Under the pieces are notes generated by a model. The model had not been told where the DNA came from. It made no database searches and saw nothing but the letters and a program-made list of their open reading frames with translations. The translations under genes and the position numbers were made by a program. From positions 1 through 26,650 of the IMG/VR virus record IMGVR_UViG_3300043331_000501: DNA of 26,650 nucleotides; one strand, 5' to 3'. Origin of the DNA: a virus. Of this stretch, positions 4,703-24,773 are shown in pieces (within the stretch, counting starts at the first letter, position 1; each line of letters opens with the position of its first letter).

Positions 4703-4876
4703 GTGACCGAGGGAATGCGCAGCTATCTGGCGGGCCTCAGCGACTCGGGCAGGGCGAAGCTCCGCAAGGACGCGACCAGAGCCCTTCGCATCGCATGGCC
4801 GAATCGCTCCACCGCTCGCGGTCGCGTCGTGGTCGTGTCCAACGTGACCATGCTCCGAAACTTGCGGGCGCTATGA
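4703..4876 (+). CDS. Small unknown early protein, first gene of the early operon
   Basis: A 57-residue basic protein from GTG 4703, chosen because AAGGAGG lies at 4692-4698, four bases before it. An in-frame ATG at 4679 would give 65 residues and could be read as a leaderless message, since the promoter's predicted start coincides with it. The sequence shows an N-terminal helix ('MRSYLAGLSDSGRAKLRKDA') and a Val-rich C-terminal segment. I do not recognise a family. It is coupled to the XRE regulator by ATGA, so the two may act together. Confidence 0.6.
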   Translation: MTEGMRSYLAGLSDSGRAKLRKDATRALRIAWPNRSTARGRVVVVSNVTMLRNLRAL

Positions 4877-5091
4877 CCACAGGCGAGAAGGTACGGCAGG
4901 CGCGCGACTCGCTCGGACTCACGCAGAAGGAGTTGGGCGCGAGGCTGGACAGGGACGCCATCACCGTCTCGCGCTGGGAGCGCAACGAGTCGTTCCCCAG
5001 CCTGCAGGCGCTCCGTCGCCTCGCGGTGATGTCCAGCGTCCCCGTGGACTGGTTCTTTGACGACGAGGGCGGAGAGGACGGCAGCAGATGA
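4873..5091 (+). CDS. XRE-family helix-turn-helix regulator
   Basis: A 72-residue Cro/C1-type DNA-binding protein. The HTH is clear: 'VRQARDSLGLTQKELGARLD' (7-26) followed by the recognition helix region 'ITVSRWERNESFPS' (30-43) and 'LRRLAVMSSVPVDWFF'. It has only the DNA-binding domain plus an acidic tail and no peptidase or oligomerisation domain, so Cro-like early control is more likely than a full lysogeny repressor. The start is the ATG overlapping the previous stop (ATGA). It probably feeds back on the promoter at 4644-4672, but I see no obvious palindromic operator there. Confidence 0.85.
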   Translation: MTTGEKVRQARDSLGLTQKELGARLDRDAITVSRWERNESFPSLQALRRLAVMSSVPVDWFFDDEGGEDGSR

Positions 5092-5213
5092 GAACGCTGT
5101 ACCGCTTTCTAAGCCTCTGGGCTCTGGCGAAGGCAATCAGCAGGGGACCCGGCGCCGTGGCCCGCAACAGGGCTAAGAAGGCCGCCTACAAGCAGATAGG
5201 AAGGGCGCTCTAG
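5088..5213 (+). CDS. Small basic helical protein
   Basis: A 41-residue frame whose ATG overlaps the XRE stop (ATGA). It has a hydrophobic/aromatic N-terminus ('MRTLYRFLSLWALAKAI') and an Arg/Lys-rich C-terminus ('RNRAKKAAYKQIGRAL'), predicted as two amphipathic helices. It might associate with membrane or nucleic acid. No family recognised; it is supported by tight coupling on both sides. Confidence 0.5.
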   Translation: MRTLYRFLSLWALAKAISRGPGAVARNRAKKAAYKQIGRAL

Positions 5214-5452
5214 TGGGCATGACCTGGCAGCCGTTGGACGAGCAGGACGATTCCGAGTCGGAGCGGGACGCCGCAGCGCCCCGTAGCCCGGTCGGTTCCC
5301 CCGGAGGCGTGGGTCATGCATCCCCGTCCTGCTCGTCGAGCGGCCCTACCCGTTCCCGCCTGTTGCCGCATGCTGGAACCCCTGACGGCGGCGGGGCCGC
5401 TCGTAAACCCCTCGACGTGCGCCGCTCGTGGCCGCGAAAGGATTGGAGCTGA
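5213..5452 (+). CDS. Uncertain small Pro/Ser/Arg-rich ORF
   Basis: A 79-codon frame from a GTG sharing one base with the previous TAG, ending in TGATG shared with the next gene. The first part ('MTWQPLDEQDDSESERDAA') looks like protein. From about 5300 the frame becomes Ser/Pro/Arg-rich and unconvincing, whereas a different frame from 5323 to its TGA at about 5385 reads a plausible 'PVLLVERPYPFPPVAACWNP'. Either the gene is disordered, it is frameshifted, or the second half is non-coding. Treat as tentative. Confidence 0.35.
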   Translation: MGMTWQPLDEQDDSESERDAAAPRSPVGSPGGVGHASPSCSSSGPTRSRLLPHAGTPDGGGAARKPLDVRRSWPRKDWS

Positions 5453-5865
5453 TGGGAGGATTCTTCGACGAGTTCGAGCCGAGCACCGTTCACGGTGACG
5501 GCACCTGGATCGGCAAAGACGAGAAAGAGGCCATGATCAAGAGCTATACGCCGATGGTGATCACGAATGTGATCTTCGAATCGACGGGCGGCTACCAGGA
5601 CACGCCGCGCTACAAGCTCGAGGTCAACGTCGAGTCCGGCCCCGACGGCACGGTGGAGAAGCGCCTGATCGGCTTCGCCCTCGGCTCCGACCCGGATAAC
5701 CCTACGTCGCGGGACATGATGCTCGACGCGATGGCCGGCTACTTCGAGCGCGAGAAGGACAAGGCCGTAGCCCCCACCGTCGTCATGGTGAAGCCCGGCG
5801 GCGGCAACTTCGTCGCCCTGGCGCCCTACGACCCGGCCGCCGACCCGAACGCGCCGTTCTCGTGA
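5452..5865 (+). CDS. Conserved-looking hypothetical early protein
   Basis: A 137-residue acidic protein. The ATG at 5452 overlaps the preceding stop (TGATG) and has GGAG about six bases upstream (5445-5448). The middle has alternating beta-like segments ('YTPMVITNVIFEST', 'RYKLEVNVESG', 'KRLIGFALGSD'), then a helix ('RDMMLDAMAGYFEREKD') and a final strand 'TVVMVKPGGGNFVALAPY'. This could be a compact beta-barrel such as an OB-like fold, but no signature is visible. It is the largest unknown early protein apart from the Ea22-like one, and is a candidate for a replication or host-takeover role by position only. Confidence 0.75.
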   Translation: MGGFFDEFEPSTVHGDGTWIGKDEKEAMIKSYTPMVITNVIFESTGGYQDTPRYKLEVNVESGPDGTVEKRLIGFALGSDPDNPTSRDMMLDAMAGYFEREKDKAVAPTVVMVKPGGGNFVALAPYDPAADPNAPFS

Positions 5866-6056
5866 GCAAGCCGCAGCAGAGCAAGCGCGAGCGCGGTAAG
5901 CGCAAGAACGCGCTCTACCCCGAGCCCACGCCCAAGCAACAGGTCGCCCGCGATGCTCCGCGCTGCTCGGCGCGTATGCCTTCCGGCTTCGGCCTGTGGA
6001 CGTATTGCGTGCTCGGGCTGGGGCACAAGGGCCGCCACATTTACGGAGGTGACTGA
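5862..6056 (+). CDS. Small zinc-knuckle-like protein
   Basis: A 64-residue protein starting at a GTG overlapping the previous stop (GTGA). The N-terminal third is very basic (KRERGKRKN). The C-terminal part 'CSARMPSGFGLWTYCVLGLG' followed by HKGRH gives a Cys...Cys...His...His pattern seen in many small phage proteins and likely binds zinc. Basic plus zinc-binding suggests nucleic acid or host-protein contact. No specific function can be assigned. Confidence 0.65.
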   Translation: MSKPQQSKRERGKRKNALYPEPTPKQQVARDAPRCSARMPSGFGLWTYCVLGLGHKGRHIYGGD

Positions 6057-6057
6057 C

Positions 6058-6246
6058 ATGGCGAAGACTGAGATCGTGGTAACCGGCCGAGTGTCGGAAA
6101 TGCTCGCCCAAGAAGTGGCTGCACTACGCCACGAGAACGCCCTGCTCCGCGAGGAACTTGCCGAGCTCCGCGCCATGATGAAGGAGGCCTCGGAGGATCT
6201 GACGAAGGCGGCCGAGGCCTACGCCGCAGCGTTGGAGTCGCTCTAG
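6058..6246 (+). CDS. Small coiled-coil protein
   Basis: A 62-residue protein with ACGGAGGT just upstream of the ATG at 6058. Residues about 12-60 form one continuous leucine-zipper-like helix ('VAALRHENALLREELAELRA'), likely a dimer. The next gene is of similar size and design, suggesting duplication or a hetero-coiled-coil pair. No catalytic feature. Confidence 0.7.
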   Translation: MAKTEIVVTGRVSEMLAQEVAALRHENALLREELAELRAMMKEASEDLTKAAEAYAAALESL

Positions 6247-6249
6247 CTC

Positions 6250-6441
6250 ATGACCACTGACCTTCTCACCGTTGAGCAAGCCTGGCAGGAGTTGGAGGCT
6301 CGCCTCGACGAGGACGGCTGCCGCTGGCTCGTCACCATTCACGGCTTCGTCATGGCTCAGTCCCGCGAGGTGGAGCGTCTGCGGCGCGAGAACGCGCAGC
6401 TACAGGCGCTCGTGTCCCGGCTTCTGAGAGGCGACGAGTGA
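6250..6441 (+). CDS. Second small coiled-coil protein
   Basis: A 63-residue protein with a helical N-terminal half ('LTVEQAWQELEARLDEDG'), a short hydrophobic middle ('WLVTIHGFVMAQ') and a C-terminal zipper ('EVERLRRENAQLQALVSRLL'). It starts three bases after the previous stop and ends overlapping the next GTG. It may pair with the coiled coil encoded just upstream. Function unknown. Confidence 0.68.
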   Translation: MTTDLLTVEQAWQELEARLDEDGCRWLVTIHGFVMAQSREVERLRRENAQLQALVSRLLRGDE

Positions 6442-6557
6442 GGTTCTACAGCGTCACCGTCGAGGACCTCATCCCCGAGCTCGTGGAGGAGATGATCGCA
6501 TGGCTCTACGGACAACTGGCCTTCGAGATGTGGTGCCAGGAGGAGGGAAGGCCGTGA
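6438..6557 (+). CDS. Small acidic protein
   Basis: A 39-residue frame starting with a GTG that overlaps the previous TGA and ending in a TGA that overlaps the next GTG. The sequence is acidic and aromatic ('VEDLIPELVEEMIAWLYGQL'), probably one amphipathic helix. The GTGA junctions on both sides are the evidence that it is translated. No family recognised. Confidence 0.5.
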   Translation: MRFYSVTVEDLIPELVEEMIAWLYGQLAFEMWCQEEGRP

Positions 6558-6832
6558 AGCTCTCGACTGTTCTCCTCGTCGCGCTCGTCGCCGCCGTGCT
6601 CGCCGCGGCCGTGCGTGCCCCCGATAGCTCCAGCCATCCGTCGACCTACTGCGGCAAGGGCCTCAACGTCACCGGAAGTTACGCCGTCAGCTTCGTGCGC
6701 CAGTTCTGGCGAGCGGACAAGGGCGGAGGCGCGAGCCTCATCCGCGTCTACCGCCACTACGAGCGCATCGGGGACACGTCCCAGTTCAAGTTCCTGCACA
6801 CGCGCAGGAAGGTTTGTGGAGGGATCGCATGA
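6554..6832 (+). CDS. Small exported protein with two cysteines
   Basis: A 92-residue protein with a clean signal peptide: basic start then 'VLLVALVAAVLAAAVRA' (residues 6-22). The GTG at 6554 is preferred over upstream starts because it begins the signal peptide and overlaps the previous stop. The mature part has a Cys near each end (about residues 33 and 88), which could form a disulfide outside the cell, and aromatic/His-rich strands ('FVRQFWRADKGG', 'IRVYRHYERIG', 'FKFLHTRRKVC'). It is coupled by ATGA to the secreted transglycosylase and may be its partner. Not a known family to me. Confidence 0.7.
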   Translation: MKLSTVLLVALVAAVLAAAVRAPDSSSHPSTYCGKGLNVTGSYAVSFVRQFWRADKGGGASLIRVYRHYERIGDTSQFKFLHTRRKVCGGIA

Positions 6833-7377
6833 GACTTCTACTCTCGCTCGCCCTCATCGTCGGCATCTGCACCTTCATCGGCGGGCGCAGCGTCGCCGGC
6901 GCGCAGGAGGAGCCCGATCCGTGCGCCGCGGAGGAGTGCGTGCCGCTGGCCGACTACGAGGCGCTCGAGGCCGAGCTCTCGGACATGACCGATCTCTTCG
7001 AGCGGGCCAATCACCGCACCATCATCCTCGAGAGCAAGGTGCGCGAGCTCAGAACGAAGCTCTGGGCTGTGCGCTACGCCAAGAAGCAGATTCTCAAGCG
7101 CCTCCGCTACAACTCCCGCGCGGCCATACGCTACGTCTTCGGCCGTTGGGCAGGGCAGGCCTTGCAGGTGTCCTACTGCGAGTCGCGCTGGTCGAGGACG
7201 GCGCGGAACGGCCAGTATCTCGGGCTGTTCCAGATGGGGAGCTACGCCCGCTCGCGCTACGGCCACTCCTCGACGGCGATCGGGCAGGCCAGAGCGGCTT
7301 TCCGCTACTTCCGCGCGACGGGGTACACGTGGCGGCCGTGGGCGTGTCAGCCGAGCTCCTACGGGGGTGTGCTGTGA
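6829..7377 (+). CDS. Secreted lytic transglycosylase-like protein with coiled coil
   Basis: A 182-residue exported cell-wall enzyme. It has a signal peptide (residues 1-25, predicted cut after 'SVAGA'), a Cys pair (C32, C37), a coiled coil about 42-93, then a lysozyme/transglycosylase-like domain. That domain shows 'QVSYCESRWSRTA' with probable catalytic Glu118, 'NGQYLGLFQMGSYARSRYGH' (127-146), 'QARAAFRYF' and a closing 'WRPWACQP'. This architecture is typical of small secreted transglycosylases of high-GC actinobacteria, so capture of a host gene is likely. It lies in the early operon and has its own export signal, so it differs from the holin-dependent amidase. It may remodel the wall during infection or act as a second lysin. 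Confidence 0.8.
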   Translation: MRLLLSLALIVGICTFIGGRSVAGAQEEPDPCAAEECVPLADYEALEAELSDMTDLFERANHRTIILESKVRELRTKLWAVRYAKKQILKRLRYNSRAAIRYVFGRWAGQALQVSYCESRWSRTARNGQYLGLFQMGSYARSRYGHSSTAIGQARAAFRYFRATGYTWRPWACQPSSYGGVL

Positions 7378-7661
7378 CCTGCCCCTACCGAGAGGCGCTG
7401 GAACGGATAGCTCGCGCTGGTGCTGTGAAGACGGGTGTGAGCGGATATGAGGAGTTCGCAACCGCTGATCCGCGCATGGAGGCGCTGTCGGATATGGCCC
7501 ACGAAGCCCTCGCCAAGCCGTGCGGGTGCGTGGTGGTGAGTGACGAGGAGGCGCGGCAGATCGAGGCGGCGCTGCGCACGCCGTCGCGCCCTCATCACGA
7601 TTGGGTCACGCAAGCAGAAGCAGCCATAGCCCTCCTCCGCGAGCGGAGCGCCGATGCCTGA
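7374..7661 (+). CDS. Hypothetical protein, helical, Cys pair
   Basis: A 95-residue protein from a GTG overlapping the transglycosylase stop (GTGA). The open frame extends far upstream, but that part only shadows the two preceding genes. It is helical and acidic, with 'KPCGCVVVSDEEARQIEAAL' in the middle and an early Cys. The composition resembles small Ea22-like accessory proteins, and the next gene is one. Function unknown. Confidence 0.6.
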   Translation: MTCPYREALERIARAGAVKTGVSGYEEFATADPRMEALSDMAHEALAKPCGCVVVSDEEARQIEAALRTPSRPHHDWVTQAEAAIALLRERSADA

Positions 7662-8085
7662 CCCCCTCACCGACCTGGCCGAGAAGGCGAAGCGGGCTAC
7701 GCCGGGGCCGTGGGGAACAGACGAGGATGAATGGTCGCACGGTGTACGGCCATACCACGACCACGCCGGGCCGATAATCGCCACATGGGACAACCGGCAC
7801 CCGGCCGATGAGCAGCATCGCCTAAACGCCGCCTACATCGCCGCCTGCTCGCCGGAGCGCATCCTGGCGCTGGTGGAGCGGGTGCGGGAGGAGTCCGAGG
7901 CTAAATGGAAGGCACGCAAGAGACTGCAAGAGGCCGAGTCTCAGATCGCAGAGCTAGAGGAGGTCGCGGAGGCGGCACGTGTGTACTGCGCCTATGACGG
8001 CGAGAGCGATGCGACCGTGGCCCTCTACTTCGACGCGATGGGGGAGGCCCTCGCCCGCCTCGATGAGATGGAGGGCGAGCGGTGA
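7654..8085 (+). CDS. Ea22-like protein
   Basis: A 143-residue protein with the hallmark start of the Ead/Ea22-like phage family: 'AKRATPGPW' (residues 12-20) and 'NAAYIAACSPERILALVERV' (about 58-77). The rest is coiled coil ('ESQIAELEEVAEAARVYC') with a helical end. Such proteins are widespread early accessory genes of temperate and lytic phages, with no firmly established biochemical role. It overlaps the previous gene by eight bases and the next by four. Confidence 0.75.
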   Translation: MPDPLTDLAEKAKRATPGPWGTDEDEWSHGVRPYHDHAGPIIATWDNRHPADEQHRLNAAYIAACSPERILALVERVREESEAKWKARKRLQEAESQIAELEEVAEAARVYCAYDGESDATVALYFDAMGEALARLDEMEGER

Positions 8086-14816: not shown

Positions 14817-14855
14817 GTGCGCTACACAATCTCGACACGCCCGCGCCCACGATGA
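14817..14855 (+). CDS. Possible 12-residue leader cistron for the epimerase
   Basis: AAAGGGAGG at 14802-14810 lies six bases before GTG 14817, which opens a 12-codon frame (VRYTISTRPRPR) ending in a TGA that overlaps the epimerase ATG. The ribosome site is over 40 bases from the epimerase start, too far to serve it directly, so the mini-frame may deliver ribosomes by coupling. A longer version from GTG 14787 would have 22 residues. Tentative. Confidence 0.35.
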   Translation: MRYTISTRPRPR

Positions 14856-15724
14856 GGCGCGTGCTCATCACCGGCGCGGCCGGCTTCATCGGCGTGAACC
14901 TGGCCGCGGAGCTCGAATCGGACCACGACGTGGTTCGCGTCGACCGCTCGGACGGCGATCTGCGCGAGCCGGGAACGATGAAGTGGCTCCTGGGCGAGCA
15001 CGAGCCCGATCTCGTCGTCCACCTGGCCGCCAAGGTCGGGCGCCTGTTCGGAGAGGACGACGTGATGGAGACGGTGCGCGACAACGCCGGCATGACGGCG
15101 TTCGTCGCCAAGGCCTGCGGCGAGGCCGGCGTTCGCCTCGTCTATGCCTCAACGTCCGAGGTGTACGGCGACGGCGCCGTGAAGACATGGGTGGAGCACG
15201 ATCTCGGCCAGGAGCTGCCGCACAACGCCTACGGGCTGACGAAGCGATGGGGCGAGGAGGTCTGTCGTCTGTACGCGCCGAACGACCTCACTATCTGGCG
15301 GATCTCCATGCCCTACGGGCCAGGGCTGCCTCCCGGCCGCGGACGAGCCGCGATCGTGAACATGCTCCACCAGGGGCTCCACCGCGAGCGTATGCCCGTT
15401 CATCGTGGGGCGGAACGAAGCTGGTGCTGGATCGGGGACACCGTGCGCGCCATGAGAATCACGCTCGACCACCCCGGCGTCTACAACGTGGGAAGAGACG
15501 ACCGCGCCGTGCCCATGCGGCGCGTTGCGGAGATCGCCTGCCTCCTCACCGGCGCTCCTCTCTCGCTGATCGAGGAGGTCGACCCGCCGGCGCGGCAGAC
15601 GGTCGTGAAGCGATTGGCGACTCAGAAGCTGAAGCGCCTCGGCTGGATGCCGGAGGTGGAGCTCGAGTCGGGCATGGCGATGACGCTCAAGTGGCTCGAA
15701 GGCCTCGAGGAGCAGGCGGCGTGA
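14852..15724 (+). CDS. NAD-dependent nucleotide-sugar epimerase/dehydratase
   Basis: A 290-residue extended short-chain dehydrogenase. It has the Rossmann motif 'VLITGAAGFIGVNLAAEL' (4-21), 'DLVVHLAAKVG' (53-63), 'LVYASTSEVYGDGA' with Thr101/Ser102, 'YGLTKRWGE' giving catalytic Tyr127 and Lys131, and 'RISMPYGPG'. It should convert an NDP-sugar (for example by epimerisation, reduction or dehydration) to supply the adjacent glycosyltransferases. The exact substrate cannot be read. The start overlaps the upstream mini-frame stop (ATGA). Confidence 0.88.
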   Translation: MRRVLITGAAGFIGVNLAAELESDHDVVRVDRSDGDLREPGTMKWLLGEHEPDLVVHLAAKVGRLFGEDDVMETVRDNAGMTAFVAKACGEAGVRLVYASTSEVYGDGAVKTWVEHDLGQELPHNAYGLTKRWGEEVCRLYAPNDLTIWRISMPYGPGLPPGRGRAAIVNMLHQGLHRERMPVHRGAERSWCWIGDTVRAMRITLDHPGVYNVGRDDRAVPMRRVAEIACLLTGAPLSLIEEVDPPARQTVVKRLATQKLKRLGWMPEVELESGMAMTLKWLEGLEEQAA

Positions 15725-16506
15725 GACTAGTAGCGCTCCTCAACTGGTATGAGGAGTCCTCGCAGTGGCTGGCCTCGCTCGTCGCCTCGCTGCAGAAGGC
15801 GAATGTCGAGCACATCGTCGCCGTGGACGGCGCCTACCAGCTCTTCCCCGATGCTCTGACCCGCCCGCGCTCGGGCTCCGAGCAGGCCGCGGCGATCACC
15901 GAGTGCGCGCATTCGCTGAATATGGGTACTACCATCTACCGGCCGCAGAAGGCCTGGCGTGGGAATGAAGTCGAGAAGCGGAACCATCTCGTTCAACTGG
16001 CGCTTGCCGAGACAGAGGCGACTGACTGGCTATTTCAGATCGACGCCGACGAGCTCGTCGACGCTGCGCCATACGACCTTGCTCGTCGTCTAGAAGAGTC
16101 CGAGGAGGACGTTGCAGGTGTCTATTTCTTTCAACGCAATACGAAACAGCCTGATCCCTCCACGGCAGTCTCGGTTCCGCCGTTCAACCCGCTCACGCTC
16201 ACCGAGGGCTTCTACGGGCACCGGATCCTCTTCCGCGCGCTCCGCGACCTGAGAATCGAGCAGGCGCACTACCTCTACACGGCCGGCCCGCCTGACCGTC
16301 CGCGCTACCTGCGAGGATTCGACGACTGGCACGACACGGAGCCGTGCCTCGAGATCAACGATTTCAGGGTGGAGCACAGGCATAATTTCAGGATGCCCTC
16401 CCGTCAGCTAGCCGCTGAGCAGTATTACTGGATGCGGGCGATGCACTCCATAGAGAGGATCAAGCCGACCGAAGGCCAGCCGATGGGAAATGCTGCTCAG
16501 GCGTAG
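15721..16506 (+). CDS. Glycosyltransferase-like protein (GT-A, DxD)
   Basis: A 261-residue protein from a GTG overlapping the epimerase stop; the longer open frame upstream only shadows the epimerase. 'LVALLNWYEESSQWLASLVA' at the start, 'EHIVAVDGAYQLFPD' and 'TDWLFQIDADELVDAAPYD' (D108, D110, E111) fit a GT-A glycosyltransferase. The His/Arg-rich end ('FRVEHRHNFRMPSR') may bind the acceptor. It closes the sugar cassette and overlaps the next small gene by 17 bases. Confidence 0.75.
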   Translation: MRLVALLNWYEESSQWLASLVASLQKANVEHIVAVDGAYQLFPDALTRPRSGSEQAAAITECAHSLNMGTTIYRPQKAWRGNEVEKRNHLVQLALAETEATDWLFQIDADELVDAAPYDLARRLEESEEDVAGVYFFQRNTKQPDPSTAVSVPPFNPLTLTEGFYGHRILFRALRDLRIEQAHYLYTAGPPDRPRYLRGFDDWHDTEPCLEINDFRVEHRHNFRMPSRQLAAEQYYWMRAMHSIERIKPTEGQPMGNAAQA

Positions 16507-16720
16507 GCGCCGCGTGCGCTATCACCTGTTCGACGGGAACGGTGGGCTCAACGCGCCCAGCTTCGAGGGCATCGAGACTGGGCTGGACTGGTCGGGCAAG
16601 CACTACATCGGAAAGAAGGGCGTACACCTGAACGGCGGCGGCCGTGTTCCGCTCGAGGGTGACGGCGAGTACGAGATCGCGCGCGAGCGCGTCTTCTACC
16701 GGCAGGTGCTGACCTCGTGA
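16490..16720 (+). CDS. Small hypothetical protein before portal
   Basis: A 76-residue protein overlapping the previous gene by 17 bases and the portal start by four. It begins with a basic 'MLLRRRRRVRYHLFDGNG', then Gly-rich beta-like segments ('HYIGKKGVHLNGGGRVPLEG'). It could be a minor structural component or belong with the sugar genes. No family recognised. Confidence 0.55.
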   Translation: MLLRRRRRVRYHLFDGNGGLNAPSFEGIETGLDWSGKHYIGKKGVHLNGGGRVPLEGDGEYEIARERVFYRQVLTS

Positions 16721-17925
16721 TCCTCGCCACCCGCCACGGCGATCGCGAGCTCCGCACAACGGGCGAGTGGGGCACCGAGCACATCATCCCGTCGCCTGAC
16801 GGCGGCGGTGTCGTTCCGCTTGGGCAGACGGTCGGGCTGCCAGCGGTGGGCGCTGCGATCCGCCTCTACTCGGCCACGGTCGCCTCCCTTCCTCTGAACG
16901 TCTTCGAGGGCGAGGACGACGAGAAGACGAAGCGTCCTGAGTCGTGGCAGCATCGCCTCTTCGAGTTTCCGAACGACGAGGTGTCGCGCTTCTCGTTCTA
17001 CTGGGACATCGAGTCTGGGCTCGAGTCGTGCGGGAATGCCTTCATCTACAAGGCGCGGATGACGAGGCGCAAGCAGGTCGGCGCCCTCTCCATCCTGCAG
17101 CCTCAGAACATGACCGTGAAGCGTGACTTCGAGACGAACGAGCTGATCTACGAGTGGTGGAACGGGCGCGAGCGGATCAAGATCCCACGCGACGACGTGC
17201 TCCACATTCGCGGCGACACGCTCGGCGGTGGCGACATCGGCTACTCGCCGCTGCAGGTTCACCGCTACTCGCTGATGACGCAGCTTCAGCGCGAGCAGTT
17301 CGAGGGGAAGCACTTCCAGAACGACGCCCGCCCCGGCGTGGCGCTCATGTTTCCGCAGGGCGTGACCGAGGATCAGGCGCGCACGTGGGCCGACGCCTGG
17401 GATGCAAGACATCAGGGCGCAGCGAACAGAGGGCGGACAGGGGTGCTCGGTGGCGGTGCCGACCTCAAGACCTTCCCGATCAACCTCGAAGAGCAGCAAT
17501 GGGTTGAGTCGCAGAAGTTTAGCGTGCAGGACGTGGCCCGCATGTACGGCATCCCGGCCGCTCTGCTCGAGGAAGGCGATCATTCGACATCCGAGGAGGA
17601 GTCGCTCCGCTGGCTCAAGTTCGGGCTGGGACCGCGGCTCGTACGCATCCAGAAGGCGTTCAAGTACGACCGCGATCTCTTCGGTCGCGACACGCCGCTC
17701 TATCCCGAGTTTTTCGTTGACGACTTCCTCCGCTCGGATGCCGTCTCGATGGCACAGGTGCAGAAGGAAAAAGTGCAGTCGGGGATCTGGCTCGTGGACG
17801 AGGCGCGGGCGAAGGACGGGATGCCGCCACTCGCAGACGGCGCCGGTCAGGTGCCGCAACTCACGCCGGTCGGCGGCGCTCCGAACCCGGCCGTGGCCGC
17901 GACAAACGGAACGTCGGGTGAATAG
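16717..17925 (+). CDS. Portal protein, HK97 family
   Basis: A 402-residue portal subunit that forms the dodecameric ring at the DNA entry vertex. Recognisable parts: 'LPAVGAAIRLYSATVASLPL' (about 41-60), 'ESGLESCGNAFIYKARM', 'DDVLHIRG', 'GYSPLQVHR', 'HFQNDARPGVALMFPQG' and 'FSVQDVARMYGIPAALLEEG' (clip and stem), ending in a disordered Pro/Ala tail. The length is typical. It starts at GTG overlapping the previous stop (GTGA). Confidence 0.92.
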   Translation: MILATRHGDRELRTTGEWGTEHIIPSPDGGGVVPLGQTVGLPAVGAAIRLYSATVASLPLNVFEGEDDEKTKRPESWQHRLFEFPNDEVSRFSFYWDIESGLESCGNAFIYKARMTRRKQVGALSILQPQNMTVKRDFETNELIYEWWNGRERIKIPRDDVLHIRGDTLGGGDIGYSPLQVHRYSLMTQLQREQFEGKHFQNDARPGVALMFPQGVTEDQARTWADAWDARHQGAANRGRTGVLGGGADLKTFPINLEEQQWVESQKFSVQDVARMYGIPAALLEEGDHSTSEEESLRWLKFGLGPRLVRIQKAFKYDRDLFGRDTPLYPEFFVDDFLRSDAVSMAQVQKEKVQSGIWLVDEARAKDGMPPLADGAGQVPQLTPVGGAPNPAVAATNGTSGE

Positions 17926-17944: not shown

Positions 17945-18715
17945 ATGAGCGATACAGGACTGCGCACGTTCTATGTTCCGCTCGATGAGTTCGAGTGGCG
18001 CGAGTCGGGCGACCCGGAGCGAAAGAACGAGACGACTCTCCGCGGTATCGCCGCACCCTTCAACTCGCTCAGCGAGGACCTCGGCGGCTTCCGCGAGATC
18101 ATCGAGCCGGGCTTTTTCCGCGATGTGCTTCGGCGCGACCCCGACGTTCGCCTGATGGTGAACCACGACGGGCTTCCGCTCGCTCGCACGCGCTCGGGCA
18201 CGCTCGAGCTGCGCGAGGACATGACGCGCGGGCTGCATGTCTTCGCCCGCCTCGACAAGACCGACGACGACGTGCGCAACCTGCGCGTGAAGATGCAGCG
18301 CCACGATGTGGATCAGATGAGCTTTGCTTTCAGGATCAAGGAGGAAGGTGGCGACGACTGGGCGGTTGCGGACGACGGCAAGGTCGTGCGCACGCTCAAG
18401 GCCGATGGAGCCTCCGAGCTCTACGACGTTTCGGTCGTCGCCTTCCCCGCGTACCCGGCCTCGAGCGCTGACATGCGCTCGGTGCTGGACGACGCAATCA
18501 AGCGTGGTCGTCTCCCCGGAGAGGCCATTCCCCCCGTCGCCTCTGATGAGGGGCAGGGAGACACGCCGCCATCGCCCACGGGTGACGGCGAGAGCGAGTT
18601 CGCGCCACCGGCGGAACTTGTTCGCTCGGGGATTTGGAGCCTGAAGAGACGCGCCAAGGACTCGGTGCGTTCGGCCCAGTTCCTGCAATCTGAGATCGAA
18701 AAGGATCTGAGATGA
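17945..18715 (+). CDS. Prohead serine protease, HK97 family (S78)
   Basis: A 256-residue maturation protease that removes the capsid scaffold domain. The family core is clear: 'LRGIAAPFNS', 'IIEPGFFRD', 'VRLMVNHDGLPLARTRSGTL' with catalytic His74, and 'VDQMSFAFRI' with catalytic Ser126, followed by 'DVSVVAFPAYPASSAD'. The C-terminal third is Pro/Glu-rich linker plus a helix, probably lost by self-cleavage. The capsid gene starts inside its stop codon (ATGA). Confidence 0.92.
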   Translation: MSDTGLRTFYVPLDEFEWRESGDPERKNETTLRGIAAPFNSLSEDLGGFREIIEPGFFRDVLRRDPDVRLMVNHDGLPLARTRSGTLELREDMTRGLHVFARLDKTDDDVRNLRVKMQRHDVDQMSFAFRIKEEGGDDWAVADDGKVVRTLKADGASELYDVSVVAFPAYPASSADMRSVLDDAIKRGRLPGEAIPPVASDEGQGDTPPSPTGDGESEFAPPAELVRSGIWSLKRRAKDSVRSAQFLQSEIEKDLR

Positions 18716-20067
18716 AGATGACAAAGAGGCTCGTCGAGGCCAAAGAGGCCAACGACCGAGCCATCGACGATCTTCGTGACTACGGCGACCTGATCGACAG
18801 GCTTCCGGCGGACACGAAGGACGACGAGCGCGAGTTCCACGCTGAAGAGCTGAAGAAGCTCGAGGACGCCGTGGAGAAGACGACTGAGAAGCTCGAGCGG
18901 GAAGTTTCCTTCCAGAAGGCCCGCGAGAACTCGGCCGTGGCGCTCAGAGAGGCCGGCGTCAGAGTCGGAGAAGAGCCGAAGACGTACCGCCCCGGCGGCC
19001 CCTTCAGCTACTTCCGCGATCTCGTCGCCACGCAGGTCCCCGCTCTCGGCATGGCAACGCCGGACGCCTTCGAGCGCCTGGCCCGCCACGGCAAGGAGAT
19101 GGCCGTGGACCTGGCCGAGAAGCGCGACGTGACCTCGGCCGATCCCGGCACGGGCACGTTCATCCCGCCGCTCTACATGGGGCAGCAGTGGATCGATGAG
19201 GAGGTGGCCGGCCGCCCGTTCGCCAACGCGATCGCGTCCATGCCCCTCAGCGCGACGGGCAAGCAGATGGACTTCCCGCGCGTGCAGACCGCGCCAACCG
19301 TCGCCGTGCAGGCGACTGAAGGCTCGGCCGTTAACGAGGTCGACTTCGACGGCGAGACGTACAGCGTTCCCAAGGTGACGATCGCCGGCCAGAACGACCT
19401 CTCCATCCAGGGCTACGAGTTCGCGGATCCCGGCATGGATGTCGTGATCATGCGCGAGCTGAACAAGTCCTACAACTCGGTTCTCGACACGCAGCTTCTC
19501 TCGGGCTCTGGCTCGGCAGGGCAGCATCGAGGGCTCCGAAACGTGGCCTCGATCAACACCGTCACGTTCTCGGGCGTCGGAGCGGCAGGCGGCGGGGATG
19601 CTCTCGTCGGTGCCATCTACGACGCCATCTCGCAGATCGCCACCAACGCGCCCGGCTACCAGGCCGACGCGGTGGTCATGCACCCACGCCGCGCCGCGTG
19701 GCTCGCCTCGCACCGCGACACCTTCGGGTCGTTGCTGCAGCAGGGCGAGTTCGCGCTCGCCTCGGGTGCCCAGAACAACGGCTTCGCGCTCTCGGTCGCC
19801 GGGCTCGGTGTCATTCTTGACCCGAACATCGCGACCACGCTCGGAACCGGCACGAACGAGGACGAGCTTTACGTCGTTGCGACGGAAGAGCTGATCCTCG
19901 CCGAAGGCGAGCTCCGCGCTCGTGTTCTCAGTGAAGTCCTGAGCGGAACGCTGCAGGTCCGCCTGCAGCTCTACGCCTTCAGCGCCTTCGCGGGAGGCAG
20001 GCGGCCGAAGACCATCACCCGCATCAGCGGCGCAGGTCTGATCCCGCCGACGTTCCCGTCGACCTAG
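18712..20067 (+). CDS. Major capsid protein, HK97 fold
   Basis: A 451-residue capsid subunit. Residues about 1-110 are a charged coiled coil ('EANDRAIDDLRDYGDLIDRL', 'FHAEELKKLEDAVEKTTEKL'), the delta/scaffold domain removed by the protease upstream. The HK97 fold follows with 'YFRDLVATQVPALG', 'TFIPPLYMGQQWIDEEVAGR', 'TVAVQATEGSAVNEVDFDGE', 'LLSGSGSAGQHRGL' and 'ADAVVMHPRRAAWLASHRDT' plus the closing 'LSEVLSGTLQVRLQLYAFSA'. It is followed by a GC-rich hairpin. The most highly expressed late gene, presumably. Confidence 0.95.
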   Translation: MKMTKRLVEAKEANDRAIDDLRDYGDLIDRLPADTKDDEREFHAEELKKLEDAVEKTTEKLEREVSFQKARENSAVALREAGVRVGEEPKTYRPGGPFSYFRDLVATQVPALGMATPDAFERLARHGKEMAVDLAEKRDVTSADPGTGTFIPPLYMGQQWIDEEVAGRPFANAIASMPLSATGKQMDFPRVQTAPTVAVQATEGSAVNEVDFDGETYSVPKVTIAGQNDLSIQGYEFADPGMDVVIMRELNKSYNSVLDTQLLSGSGSAGQHRGLRNVASINTVTFSGVGAAGGGDALVGAIYDAISQIATNAPGYQADAVVMHPRRAAWLASHRDTFGSLLQQGEFALASGAQNNGFALSVAGLGVILDPNIATTLGTGTNEDELYVVATEELILAEGELRARVLSEVLSGTLQVRLQLYAFSAFAGGRRPKTITRISGAGLIPPTFPST

Positions 20068-20330: not shown

Positions 20331-20502
20331 GATCCACGCCAAGGGCGGCGCGCGTGAAGCGACGATCGAAGTCGTGGTCATCCGTGCCAACGGCGAACGC
20401 GAGGAGCTCGGCGTCGTCTCCTACTGGCACAAGCATTTCTGGAAGCGATGGGCGTTTGCCCTCCGACGTAAGCTGAAAGGAGCGACGTGGCGACTTTCGT
20501 AG
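20323..20502 (+). CDS. Small basic hypothetical protein
   Basis: A 59-residue frame from a GTG eight bases inside the preceding gene, ending 16 bases inside the next. It has a beta-like start ('EATIEVVVIRANGEREELGV') and an aromatic/basic end ('YWHKHFWKRWAFALRRKLKG'). The ends mesh with both neighbours, supporting translation. No family recognised. Confidence 0.5.
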   Translation: MGEIHAKGGAREATIEVVVIRANGEREELGVVSYWHKHFWKRWAFALRRKLKGATWRLS

Positions 20503-20879
20503 TTGACGGCGGCCTCGATATTGTCACGAACCGGATCAAGGGAGCCGGCACCGAGCCGCTTCACGTCGGCTGGGGAACGGGCGCCGGCACGACGACGCGC
20601 ACGGACACCTCGCTCTTTACGGCCGCGCTCGTCGACCTCACAGCGGGGAACACCGATCACACCGCCGGAACGTCCACGCGGCAGACGACGACGACGACGA
20701 ACGACACCTATCAGGTGGTCGCCACGCGAACGGCGACGGGCTCGGGCACGGTAACAAACGCGGGCCTGTGGGACGCGGCCTCGGCCGGGAACCTCTTCCT
20801 CAAGGGCGACTTCACCGGGATCGGGCTCTCGAGCGGTGACGCGATCCAGTTCACGATCAAAGCCGTCTTCGACAACTAG
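20487..20879 (+). CDS. Virion structural / appendage protein, beta-rich
   Basis: A 130-residue Thr/Gly-rich protein starting at GTG after AAAGGAGCGAC. 'GLDIVTNRIKGAGTEPLHVG' followed by 'WGTGAGTTTRTDTSLFT' and 'TNDTYQVVATRTATGSGTVT' and 'GDFTGIGLSSGDAIQFTIKA' match a familiar class of small phage structural proteins annotated as head- or tail-fibre-like. It lies between capsid and connector genes, so capsid-surface or fibre attachment is inferred. Confidence 0.65.
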   Translation: MATFVVDGGLDIVTNRIKGAGTEPLHVGWGTGAGTTTRTDTSLFTAALVDLTAGNTDHTAGTSTRQTTTTTNDTYQVVATRTATGSGTVTNAGLWDAASAGNLFLKGDFTGIGLSSGDAIQFTIKAVFDN

Positions 20880-20881
20880 CC

Positions 20882-21676
20882 GTGGCGGTGATCCGCCTCC
20901 ATAACGAGACCTTTTTCTGCAACCGCCGCATGGACGGCGAGACAGTCGTAGTCACGATCGACGCGGGCGTGGGCGTCGTGGCCTGCCAGTTGCAGGAAGG
21001 AGCCACCGGAGCCTTCACGCTTCTCGCCCAGCAATACGGAGCGCAGGACGTGGTCAAGGGCGGCGTCGGCGTCCGTGACCTGACCATTCAGGGTTACGCG
21101 ATCGGCCACCCGGGCCCGAGCGCGGCGCATCAGGACGCCGTGCAGATCATGGGCGGGCGTGGCATCCACTTCGAGCACTTCCATGCGCTCCTCGGCGCGG
21201 GCGACGGTCGGCACTCGGCCTTCTTCGTCTCGACAGGCGTCGAGGCGCTCGACCCCTGTTTCGACGTGCTCCTCGAGGACGGCATCATCGCCGGCCCGAA
21301 CGCGCAGGGCTGCCACATCGCCGACGACAACGCCGCCTGCGGCGTCCGCCGCTCGATGATCTACTCGAAGCCTCCCGCGTTCGAGGGCAAGAACGACCCG
21401 GGCGTGATCAACGAGGGCAACGTCATCCGCACGACTCCGCTATCGAGCTCTGAGTGGGAAGGGGCGGTAGCTGCCGCCTATGCTGCTTATCCAGACCCCG
21501 GCGACGAGCCGCCCGGCCCGACGTGCGAGGACTTGCTGGCCGAGGCGCGTGCCGCGCTCGAGGACTGCCGCACGCTCCTCGCCGCCGAGACGGCCCGAGC
21601 CGACGACGCCACGCAAACGGCGCTCGGCTACGCGGCCAAGTTGACCTCAATTCGCGCCATCCTCGACGGGACGTAG
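20882..21676 (+). CDS. Beta-helix-like appendage protein
   Basis: A 264-residue protein starting at GTG just after the previous stop. Residues about 25-190 resemble a right-handed beta-helix of the pectate-lyase-like type ('GGVGVRDLTIQGYAIGHPG', 'AAHQDAVQIMGGRGIHFEHF', 'DVLLEDGIIAGPNAQGCHIA', 'PGVINEGNVI'). The His/Asp-rich 'AHQDAVQ' is a possible active or ligand site. Residues about 215-264 are helical, likely trimerising. Such folds in phages are commonly spikes or polysaccharide-binding or -cutting proteins. The location in the head region is unusual. Confidence 0.65.
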   Translation: MAVIRLHNETFFCNRRMDGETVVVTIDAGVGVVACQLQEGATGAFTLLAQQYGAQDVVKGGVGVRDLTIQGYAIGHPGPSAAHQDAVQIMGGRGIHFEHFHALLGAGDGRHSAFFVSTGVEALDPCFDVLLEDGIIAGPNAQGCHIADDNAACGVRRSMIYSKPPAFEGKNDPGVINEGNVIRTTPLSSSEWEGAVAAAYAAYPDPGDEPPGPTCEDLLAEARAALEDCRTLLAAETARADDATQTALGYAAKLTSIRAILDGT

Positions 21677-21688
21677 GAGGGGGGCGCC

Positions 21689-23863
21689 GTGGCTCTCGGC
21701 GTCAAGAAGGGAACCTTCACCTGGCCGACGAGCACGGGCACGTTCGACCTTGCCGGGACGCTCTCCTTCGTTCCCAAGGCCGTGCATCTGTGGACGACCG
21801 GCGGGCAGACCTCTGCGGGCGCGGTAACGAACCAGTCGACACGCTGGAGCCAGGGCTTCGGCACCTACCGAGGCGCCGCTGTTCAGCAGTGCTACACGTC
21901 CAACTGGGCGACTGACGGCAACACGTCGGCCATCTACGGCCAGGACACGGACGATAACGCGATTCTTACGCGCATGGCGTCGGACACGACGCGCGATGCT
22001 GTGATCACGCTGGACTCGATGGACTCGGACTCGGTGACGCTCAACTGCACCGATGCCTCTGCCTCTGCCGTGATCGTCCATTACCTCGTGCTCGGAGGCG
22101 ACGACATCTCAGACGCCGAGGCGCACTTCTACCGCTTCGGTACGAGTTCGCCGCAGGACGTGACGCTCGGCTCGGGATTTGGCAACCCCGGCGATAGCGG
22201 CGATCCATTCCTGTGGTTCTTCGCTCAGTCGGGCGTGACGGCCTCCGGGGGTGGCATCTCCGGCATCGACTGGAACAACGGCTTCGGCGTCACGCGCTCG
22301 GACAGCGAGCGGGCCTTCTGCCTCTTCGGCGGCGACGACGGCGGCGGCAACATGAACGTCGCCATTTGGGCCAAGGATCGCGCGCTCCTCGGCTTCACAT
22401 CGGCTGCGGGCACGGCCGATGCTGAAGGCGACCTCAACACGAGCGGCCACCCGACCGATGGCTACGAGCTCACGTGGCCCGACGTTCCCTCCTTGCAGCG
22501 AACCGTGTGCGCTCTCGCCATCCGTGGCACCTTCCAGGCGCAGATCGGCAGGCAGGCCACGAGGACGAGCACGGGCGACCAGGACATCGCGCAGTCCTTC
22601 TCGGAGGAACTTCGCGCCTGCATCTTCTTCGGCCACTCCGAGCCCGGCTCGACCTCGCCGATCACGAGCGGTACGAGCCTAGGAAACATCTTCGTCGGCG
22701 CCACCGACCTCACAACCGAGGGAAGTTCGGGCTTCGGAGATGACGACGGACTCGGCTTCAACAACTCGGCGCTGATCACCTCGACGACGCAGGCCGTTCA
22801 GTGTTACGGCCACACCGGGACGGAAAACAGCATCACGAATCTCTACTCCGCCGATGTGGCCGAAAACAGCACGAACGTCCGCCTCACGTACACGACGGCT
22901 AACGGCACGGCGCGGGAGTTCGCCTACTGCTTCTTGTACGACGCGTCGGCAGGCGGAACGACCTTTGATCAGGACGTGACCGCAAACGCAACGAGCACGG
23001 CGACCATTCAGAGGCAGGCGAACAAGCTCGTCACCGCTAACGCCTCGAGCACGGCCACGATTCAGCGCCTCGTCTCCAAGGCGCTCACGGCTACGTCGAC
23101 GACGACGGCCACTGTGCGCAAGCAGGTGAACAAGGCACTCACGGCGACGACCGTGACGACTACGGCCACGATCAACACCGTCAAGGTGAAGATCCAGGCG
23201 CTCACGGCCACGGTGACAAGCACGGCCACGATGCAGCGCCAGGTGTCGAAGCTCGTCAACGCCACGGTGACGACGCTCGCCACGGTTCGGAAGCAGATTT
23301 CAAAGGCGCTGACGGCGACGGCCTCGAGCACGGCCACCATCGCCACGATCAAGGTCAAGCTGCAAGCGCTGACGGCGACCGTGACGAGCTCGGCCACGAT
23401 CCAGCGACAGACGAACAAGCTCCTCAACGCGACGGCTACGACCCTCGCCACGATTCAGAAGCAGGTAGCCAAGAGGATCACGGCTACGGTGGCGACCACG
23501 GCCACGATCCAAGCCCTGCGCGTCTTCCTGCGTACGCTCACGGCTACTGTGACCACGACGGCCACCATTCGCCGCAGCGTCTCGTTCACGCTCTCGGCTG
23601 CCGTGACTACGACTGCGAGCGTGGCGAAGACGATCCCGAAAACACTCGTTGCTACGGCCACCTCGCTCGCCTCGATGATCGCTGACTGGATCCCTGCGAG
23701 CTTCGCTGCTTTGCCGCCCTTCCGCTCGACGCAGTTCGGAAGGCTGCGCACGCGGCATAGGGGAAGCGTTGCGGGATCGGAGCTCGGAAGCCTCGAGTCG
23801 GAGGAGGCGGGCACCATTACGACCGCGCAGACTGGCACACTAGGCGAGGACACCGATGGCTAG
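21689..23863 (+). CDS. Large fibre-like protein with Thr-rich 18-residue repeats
   Basis: A 724-residue protein with a ribosome site GTAGGAGGGG before its GTG start. Residues about 1-425 are a Gly/Ser/Asp-rich beta-type region ('AVHLWTTGGQTSAGAVTNQS', 'DPFLWFFAQSGVTASGGGIS', 'YELTWPDVPSLQRTVCALAI'), like the globular part of virion surface proteins. Residues 429-667 comprise 13 tandem units of about 18 residues ('ALTATVTSTATMQRQVSK' is one). The end is a short aromatic/basic and acidic tail. It is one of the largest proteins in the window and very Thr/Ser-rich. A capsid-attached or tail fibre is likely. The repeat DNA is also degenerate-repetitive. Confidence 0.75.
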   Translation: MALGVKKGTFTWPTSTGTFDLAGTLSFVPKAVHLWTTGGQTSAGAVTNQSTRWSQGFGTYRGAAVQQCYTSNWATDGNTSAIYGQDTDDNAILTRMASDTTRDAVITLDSMDSDSVTLNCTDASASAVIVHYLVLGGDDISDAEAHFYRFGTSSPQDVTLGSGFGNPGDSGDPFLWFFAQSGVTASGGGISGIDWNNGFGVTRSDSERAFCLFGGDDGGGNMNVAIWAKDRALLGFTSAAGTADAEGDLNTSGHPTDGYELTWPDVPSLQRTVCALAIRGTFQAQIGRQATRTSTGDQDIAQSFSEELRACIFFGHSEPGSTSPITSGTSLGNIFVGATDLTTEGSSGFGDDDGLGFNNSALITSTTQAVQCYGHTGTENSITNLYSADVAENSTNVRLTYTTANGTAREFAYCFLYDASAGGTTFDQDVTANATSTATIQRQANKLVTANASSTATIQRLVSKALTATSTTTATVRKQVNKALTATTVTTTATINTVKVKIQALTATVTSTATMQRQVSKLVNATVTTLATVRKQISKALTATASSTATIATIKVKLQALTATVTSSATIQRQTNKLLNATATTLATIQKQVAKRITATVATTATIQALRVFLRTLTATVTTTATIRRSVSFTLSAAVTTTASVAKTIPKTLVATATSLASMIADWIPASFAALPPFRSTQFGRLRTRHRGSVAGSELGSLESEEAGTITTAQTGTLGEDTDG
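22973..23689 (+). repeat. Thirteen-unit coding repeat (18-21 residues each)
   Basis: Within the protein at 21689-23863, residues 429-667 split into 13 units. The consensus is a hydrophobic residue, T-A-T, two or three Ser/Thr, A-T-hydrophobic, then a basic/polar segment ending in K. Twelve units have 18, 20 or 21 residues and the last has 16. The longer units are the fourth, seventh and tenth (starting at residues 483, 540 and 596), so units are grouped in threes with a super-period of 56-57 residues. Confidence 0.85.
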
Positions 23864-24773
23864 CAGCATCACCCGATACAAGGACAGGCGCCAGCCACCT
23901 CTCGAGGCGACTATCTCGACGGATGGGAGCGCAGATCCGCTGCCCGCCGGTGCGACAGTCAAGTTTCAGATGCGCGCCGTGGGCTCGACCGTGCTCAAGG
24001 TCGACGCCGCGGCCACGGTCGTCTCGGAGCCAAACAACCAGGTTTCCTACAGCTTTGCGGCCGCTGACGTGGACACTGCCGGCGACTTCCTGGGATGGTG
24101 GCGGGTCACGATTGCGGGCCAGGACGAGGACACGCCCGAGTTTCTCGTCCGCATCCTCGAGCACTCGGGCCAGACTCATACTTACCTCGAGGTGGAGCAA
24201 GCCAAGTCCACGCTTGAGCTCTCGGGAACGTCCCACTCCGACGCCGACCTCGAGGCCGCGCTCGTCGCCGCTTCCCGCGCCGTGGACGAGATCACCGGGA
24301 CGCGCTTCTTCACGACCACGGGCACGGAGATCCGCTACTACACGCCCGACAATCCGCGTCTCCTGCAGACGGACGACATCAACACCATCACGGAGCTCGC
24401 CACGGACGAAAGCGGCGGGACGGGCTTCTCCTCGGTGTGGACGGCGAATGACGAGTACGTCCTCGAGCCGCTGAACGCCTCGCTCGACGGGCGCCCCTGG
24501 AATCGCATCCGCGTCGCCGGCCGCAGCTTCCGCCTCTTCACGGAGTACCCGCGCTCGGTGCGCGTCACCGGCAAGTTCGGATGGACGGCCGCGCCCGACG
24601 GCGTGCAGATCGCCACCGGTATCATCGCCACGAAGATCATGCGCCGAGCTCGCGAGGCTCCCTTCGGTATCGTGACCGTGGGCCTCGACGGCAGCCCCGT
24701 GCGCATCGCCCGCTCTGACGGCCAGGTGATGGAGCTCCTGGCGCCCTACAACCGAGACGTTCCCTTTGCCTGA
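23856..24773 (+). CDS. Head-tail connector (gp6-like) with N-terminal BppU-like domain
   Basis: A 305-residue protein. The C-terminal part (from about 108) looks like a gp6-type head-tail connector: 'TYLEVEQAKSTLELSG', 'DADLEAALVAASRAVDEITG' (129-148), 'TRFFTTTGTEIRYYTPD', 'DGVQIATGIIATKIMRRARE'. The N-terminal ~105 residues ('ISTDGSADPLPAGATVKFQM', 'GDFLGWWRVTIAGQDEDTPE') resemble an Ig-like or BppU-N-type beta-sandwich seen in phage baseplate or fibre proteins. This fusion is unusual: the extra domain may sit at the neck or bind a fibre. The ATG overlaps the previous stop region. Confidence 0.72.
   Translation: MASSITRYKDRRQPPLEATISTDGSADPLPAGATVKFQMRAVGSTVLKVDAAATVVSEPNNQVSYSFAAADVDTAGDFLGWWRVTIAGQDEDTPEFLVRILEHSGQTHTYLEVEQAKSTLELSGTSHSDADLEAALVAASRAVDEITGTRFFTTTGTEIRYYTPDNPRLLQTDDINTITELATDESGGTGFSSVWTANDEYVLEPLNASLDGRPWNRIRVAGRSFRLFTEYPRSVRVTGKFGWTAAPDGVQIATGIIATKIMRRAREAPFGIVTVGLDGSPVRIARSDGQVMELLAPYNRDVPFA

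Follow-up and report, generated by a model that had tools for sequence, protein, structure and literature searches.

A hierarchical threonine-rich repeat linked to a gp80-like gene, probably the connecting rope of a chain-like phage fibre

The repeat array of a 724-residue protein from an uncultured bacterial virus is, on balance, probably the connecting "rope" of a chain-like virion fibre that threads gp80-like beads and carries the N-terminal region of the protein as its payload. A rope of this beads-on-a-string type is proposed because related repeat proteins adjoin a gp80-like bead in many phages. In the proposed arrangement, each unit of about 18 residues would fold into a pair of short beta-strands and a turn, with a basic loop after them, and would dock on a single subunit of the gp80-like protein (130 residues) whose gene lies nearby. 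By threading these beads one after another, the units would build a fibre near the head–tail junction, with the number of beads set by the length of the array, and the exchangeable payload would probably be a surface-binding domain. As far as could be found, the rope part of such fibres is known from one solved virus and has apparently not been described before as a sequence family. Cryo-EM often loses chain-like neck and head fibres, which are flexible, and this makes their connecting proteins hard to find.

The window analysed is the 26,650-base IMG/VR fragment of this virus, and its main features are listed in Table 1. The repeat gene lies downstream of the portal, prohead protease and major capsid genes and is followed by a head–tail adaptor gene, a virion-type neighbourhood that agrees with the initial annotation of its product as a large virion protein. 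Residues 429–667 of the open reading frame correspond exactly to positions 22973–23689. Antisense reading frames overlie the array at 23062–23451, 23300–23758 and 23455–23853. The sense frame is considered the coding one because mismatches between in-register copies usually concentrate at codon position 3 (the comparison of 23144 with 23315, which is out of register, was left out). The 264-residue protein between the bead and rope genes has, by eye, a sequence suggestive of a beta-helix followed by a coiled coil at the C-terminus, and is possibly another fibre part or a depolymerase. Just upstream of the portal gene, positions 14852–16428 encode a sugar epimerase and then a glycosyltransferase (phrog_7009), for which modification of virion or host glycans is a possible role. 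At 759–2726, after a tape-measure-like reading frame, is the gene for a protein of 655 residues that contains a concanavalin A-like (Laminin_G_3) domain.

Table 1. Positions of the repeat gene, its parts and its neighbours in the window
Feature	Position	Strand	Basis or remark
724-residue repeat protein gene	21689..23863	+	GTG start
N-terminal region, residues 1-421 (proposed payload)	21689..22951	+	70% identical in L001, with a different repeat there
Array N-cap GGTTFDQ	22952..22972	+	Resembles GGTTFPQAL / TIFNQAL preceding other arrays
Array units 1-3 (18 residues each)	22973..23134	+	
Array block, units 4-6 (21, 18, 18)	23135..23305	+	
Array block, units 7-9 (20, 18, 18)	23306..23473	+	
Array block, units 10-12 (20, 18, 18)	23474..23641	+	
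Array unit 13 and C-cap (TLVATATSLASMIADWIPASF)	23642..23704	+	SLVADFI conserved in relatives
C-terminal tail of repeat protein, basic then Gly/acidic	23705..23860	+	Sequence; tails of relatives
130-residue gp80-like protein P0001 (proposed bead)	20487..20879	+	Pfam PF23140, 26.1 bits (cut-off 27)
264-residue protein separating bead and rope genes	20882..21676	+	Without family match
Head–tail adaptor, directly after repeat gene	23856..24773	+	phrog_442
Major capsid protein	18712..20067	+	phrog_2263, PF05065
Prohead protease	17945..18715	+	PF04586
Portal protein	16717..17925	+	PF04860

The array consists of 13 units of 18, 18, 18, 21, 18, 18, 20, 18, 18, 20, 18, 18 and about 18 residues, starting at residues 429, 447, 465, 483, 504, 522, 540, 560, 578, 596, 616, 634 and 652. 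Because the long units are the fourth (21 residues), the seventh (20) and the tenth (20), the super-periods are 57, 56 and 56 residues. Self-alignment of residues 426–675 with BLOSUM62 scored highest at lags 56 and 18 (means 1.52 and 1.47), far above 300 shuffled sequences, in which the maximum over all lags averaged 0.39 with a 99th percentile of 0.57. TRF independently found a 168-nt (56-codon) period at 23148–23509. These results confirmed both the 13-unit repeat and the super-period of 56–57 residues that had been read from the sequence by eye, with a long unit at every third position after an opening run of three short ones. Threonine makes up 64 of 250 array residues, Thr and Ser together about one third, and the "basic half" of the unit is the loop xRQVxK.

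Searches of Pfam, PHROG, NCBIfam and the PDB assigned the window protein to no family beyond compositional matches, in keeping with the earlier view that the motif belongs to no named repeat family; matches to SMC, phasin, centromere and LIM proteins were judged compositional. In named phages, tblastn gave no match to the window protein, a result probably due to masking of the array by low-complexity filtering, and a search of bacterial genomes with a single peptide pattern found no relative. Three internal domain copies suspected by eye in residues 1–420 were not significant (E 0.03–0.07).

The repeat does recur elsewhere: profile scans of viral contigs detected about 15 other distinct ones that carry it. 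The GenBank record MW202615.1 (L021), reached by tblastn, contains a Ser/Ile-rich array with the same leading lags of 56 and 18. This record is the sole clear GenBank relative; its repeat gene (4710–7709, + strand) is unannotated, and a hypothetical protein has been called on the minus strand over the array (5774–7585). The consensus of the short unit, drawn from 104 units, is [ATL][LVM][TS]AT[VA]T[TS]TA[TS][IM]x[KR][QS][VI][GNS]K, and the long unit has xA[IL]KVIL[LK] in place of x[KR][QS][VI]GK. Arrays typically follow the order SSSL(SSL)n, where S is 18 and L is 20 residues, and in 9 of 16 arrays exactly three short units precede the first long one. Long units are spaced by three in 25 of 40 cases, compared to a mean of 6.1 and a maximum of 16 in 5,000 random placements. 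The spacing is four in another 9 of the 40, so the every-third rule is not strict, and the three-sided form suggested earlier for the array is not supported.

The phases of the three-unit block also differ in residue preference. In the units directly after a long one, [AT]1, M12 and R14 are preferred, and in the units after those, I12 and K14 (Fisher p 2.5e-5, 0.009 and 4e-4; relatedness among the sequences makes the counts non-independent). Same-phase units from different phages share 58% identity, compared to 54.5% for different-phase units within one phage, and on this ground the block is regarded as old and shared. Same-phase units within one phage reach 64%, which suggests later block copying as well. 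From these identities, the three-unit block is an ancient inherited unit and not merely a recent duplication in the window protein. The proposal in the initial annotation that the protein grew by duplication of three-unit blocks is supported in part. Relatives conserve both the lead-in to the array (FxQAL) and its end (SLVADFI). One reading frame (L025, 5848–7071) contains two arrays with a second lead-in (PTGTIFNQAL) between them, an arrangement that resembles a fusion of two rope genes. In L012, L009, L036 and L007, the C-terminus of the array protein is an acidic Gly/Pro tail in which repeats like FDEPSPSAG occur; the tail may be a distinct signal for attachment or assembly.

Array and N-terminal region are combined in a modular way. 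The relative L001 shares the N-terminal region at 70% identity over residues 1–423 and then continues with a repeat whose unit is 22 residues and whose super-period is 115 residues, in a gene that precedes the adaptor gene as in the window. Other arrays are preceded by other N-terminal domains or by a short leader alone (L017, 213 residues in total). Judged by these comparisons, the array is a mobile module, with an N-terminal domain that is variable or absent and, in a near relative, a different repeat. In L001 (4979–7072), the repeat that replaces the Thr repeat is of the PGSYALTG type, and the small gene upstream encodes a phrog_644 protein that is not P0001-like; a joint swap of bead and rope is possible there.

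A link to a known fibre comes from the gene for P0001. Homologues of P0001 with 50–92% identity were present in 16 of the 21 repeat-bearing records, and several of the records that lack one are short or begin inside the array. The reverse search, starting from P0001, yielded 80 contigs, of which 62 extend at least 2 kb downstream. With a periodic reading frame defined by a statistic of at least 6 at a lag of 17–20 residues or at roughly double or triple this lag, 42 of these 62 loci have one downstream of the P0001 homologue (40 without two contigs that carry a 37-residue repeat; some loci are near-duplicates). Among upstream control reading frames, 10 of 515 passed the same threshold, a rate that is higher per locus than per reading frame because each locus holds several. 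At a looser threshold of at least 4.5, 55 of 62 loci passed but so did 30 of 515 controls, and the stricter value was used for this reason. The downstream arrays include Gly/Ile-, Ala/Gly-, Gln- and Arg-rich types that keep the 18-residue-type period. In the phage collection, both P0001 matches (MW202615.1 and MW202796.1, the latter judged by eye) have a repeat gene downstream, directly adjoining the P0001 homologue in MW202796.1. Bead and array genes are adjacent in many contigs and are one gene apart in the window. The 37-residue repeat of L089 and L102 (NTTQIATTAFVKAQAYATLASPxLTGTP) also follows a gp80-like gene.

P0001 itself appears to be a remote relative of the podophage GP4 fibre protein gp80 (PDB 8jou). 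The Pfam family PF23140, "Podophage GP4 fiber I protein gp80", falls just short of its cut-off in the window, exceeds it in 6 of 21 records (27.6 bits in L059), and matches 11 of 14 members of the P0001 family at E<=0.001 (best 6.7e-7). The match of P0001 to PDB 8jou_a was weak. A comparison of the P0001 family with close 8jou_a homologues by hhalign gave an E value of 5e-5 and a probability of 67% over 45 columns, within the C-terminal third only, and phrog_240 is common to the P0001 family and gp80 homologues.

The same pair of genes, a bead followed by a repeat protein, is found in cultured phages of the GP4 type (BcepIL02 gp55–gp56, POI1126 gp15–gp16, PBC5 gp12–gp13 and CELFI gp22–gp23). 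BcepIL02 gp55 matches 8jou_a at 2e-48. The gene after the gp80 homologue has a 20-residue period in all four phages, and these genes rank 1–4 in periodicity among 45 genes tested. BcepIL02 gp56 contains about 11 units and POI1126 gp16 about 10 (a script found 10 and 8, the rest being counted by eye), compared to 10 gp80 chains in 8jou; no PDB chain matches gp56. The window array differs from these ropes in its 18/18/20 units, as opposed to units of about 20–22 residues, and in its fusion to a large N-terminal payload. The architecture is shared, but sequence homology between the two kinds of repeat is not demonstrable. In Ralstonia phage GP4, fibre I is reportedly made of gp80 dimers linked by a rope protein. 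8JOU_g has been described as a fibril that joins an adhesin to the collar of the GP4 tail nozzle (PMC13243795). In a three-gene module of Alishewanella phage LSH1 (gp34–gp35), a dimeric gp80-like protein likewise adjoins a payload protein whose long C-terminal region could not be modelled well, although that module sits after the lysis genes (PMC13243795). Anabaena phage A-1(L) also carries a bead chain at the neck, near the head–tail junction (gp82–gp81–gp80), but its beads, trimers of gp81, were modelled in head-to-tail connection, and no rope protein was described (PMC10966104).

The initial annotation favoured an extended beta-type stalk. AlphaFold2 with a 14-row alignment placed two short strands in every unit, with a tight turn and a loop of variable length, at low confidence (pLDDT 57, pTM 0.48; a single-sequence model of the whole protein, with pLDDT 36, was discarded). 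This model is consistent with a beta-rich rope or shaft and too weak to choose between them. A self-standing shaft, in which three copies would intertwine as a beta-spiral-like stalk similar to that of the adenovirus fibre and hold the N-terminal domains off the virion, would fit such strand–turn–strand repeats and the alternation of small or hydrophobic positions with Thr. A glycine or proline in the tight turn is a mark of triple beta-spiral repeats, whereas positions 7 and 8 are T and T/S in nearly all 104 units, with no Gly/Pro turn. The Adeno_shaft profile (PF00608) matched none of 18 records at E<=1. Foldseek found no significant match in the PDB for the low-confidence array model, and in BFVD an unnamed entry scored best (4e-4), with phage proteins that are uncharacterised ranking next. 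A beta-spiral takes about 17 residues to span 15 A (PMC7565637), close to the length of one unit, yet a shaft leaves the constant gp80-like neighbour unexplained, and we regard it as rather unlikely. The beta-rich character of the repeat is retained; since the array module is tied to this neighbour, the rope of a chain-like fibre is preferred to a free-standing stalk. A left-handed beta-helix of hexapeptide repeats was rejected, as lags 6 and 12 are outside the 25 strongest.

The high Thr and Ser content, together with the epimerase and glycosyltransferase genes, could also point to a flexible linker, possibly O-glycosylated by these enzymes and serving as a mere domain spacer. This is improbable: the glycosyltransferase family of the window occurs in only 2 of 19 repeat-bearing records, arrays of quite different composition retain the period, and the conservation of unit lengths and of phase-specific residues would not be expected of a mere linker. 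An internal or assembly protein, such as a tape measure, scaffold or ejection protein, appears very improbable. The tape-measure matches in relatives L012, L009 and L017 (phrog_305 and phrog_167) are weak (E about 0.003–0.02) and probably reflect composition, the window has its own tape-measure match at another place (126–755), and the N-terminal domains vary and swap in a way typical of surface proteins.

The rope reading allows a more tentative extension. Each unit may bind one bead subunit and the 18/18/20 block correspond to one bead of fixed stoichiometry, so that phages would swap payloads and exchange or copy blocks to set the length of the fibre; we consider this length code doubtful but conceivable. 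With the same reserve, a widespread rope family may have been hidden by sequence drift, low-complexity filters and gene calls on the wrong strand. A simple sequence rule, a gp80-like bead gene with an adjoining gene of 18–22-residue periodicity, would make many unannotated virion genes readable as ropes and could explain the badly modelled region of LSH1 gp34. The number of units would then predict the length of the fibre, which is a measurable quantity.
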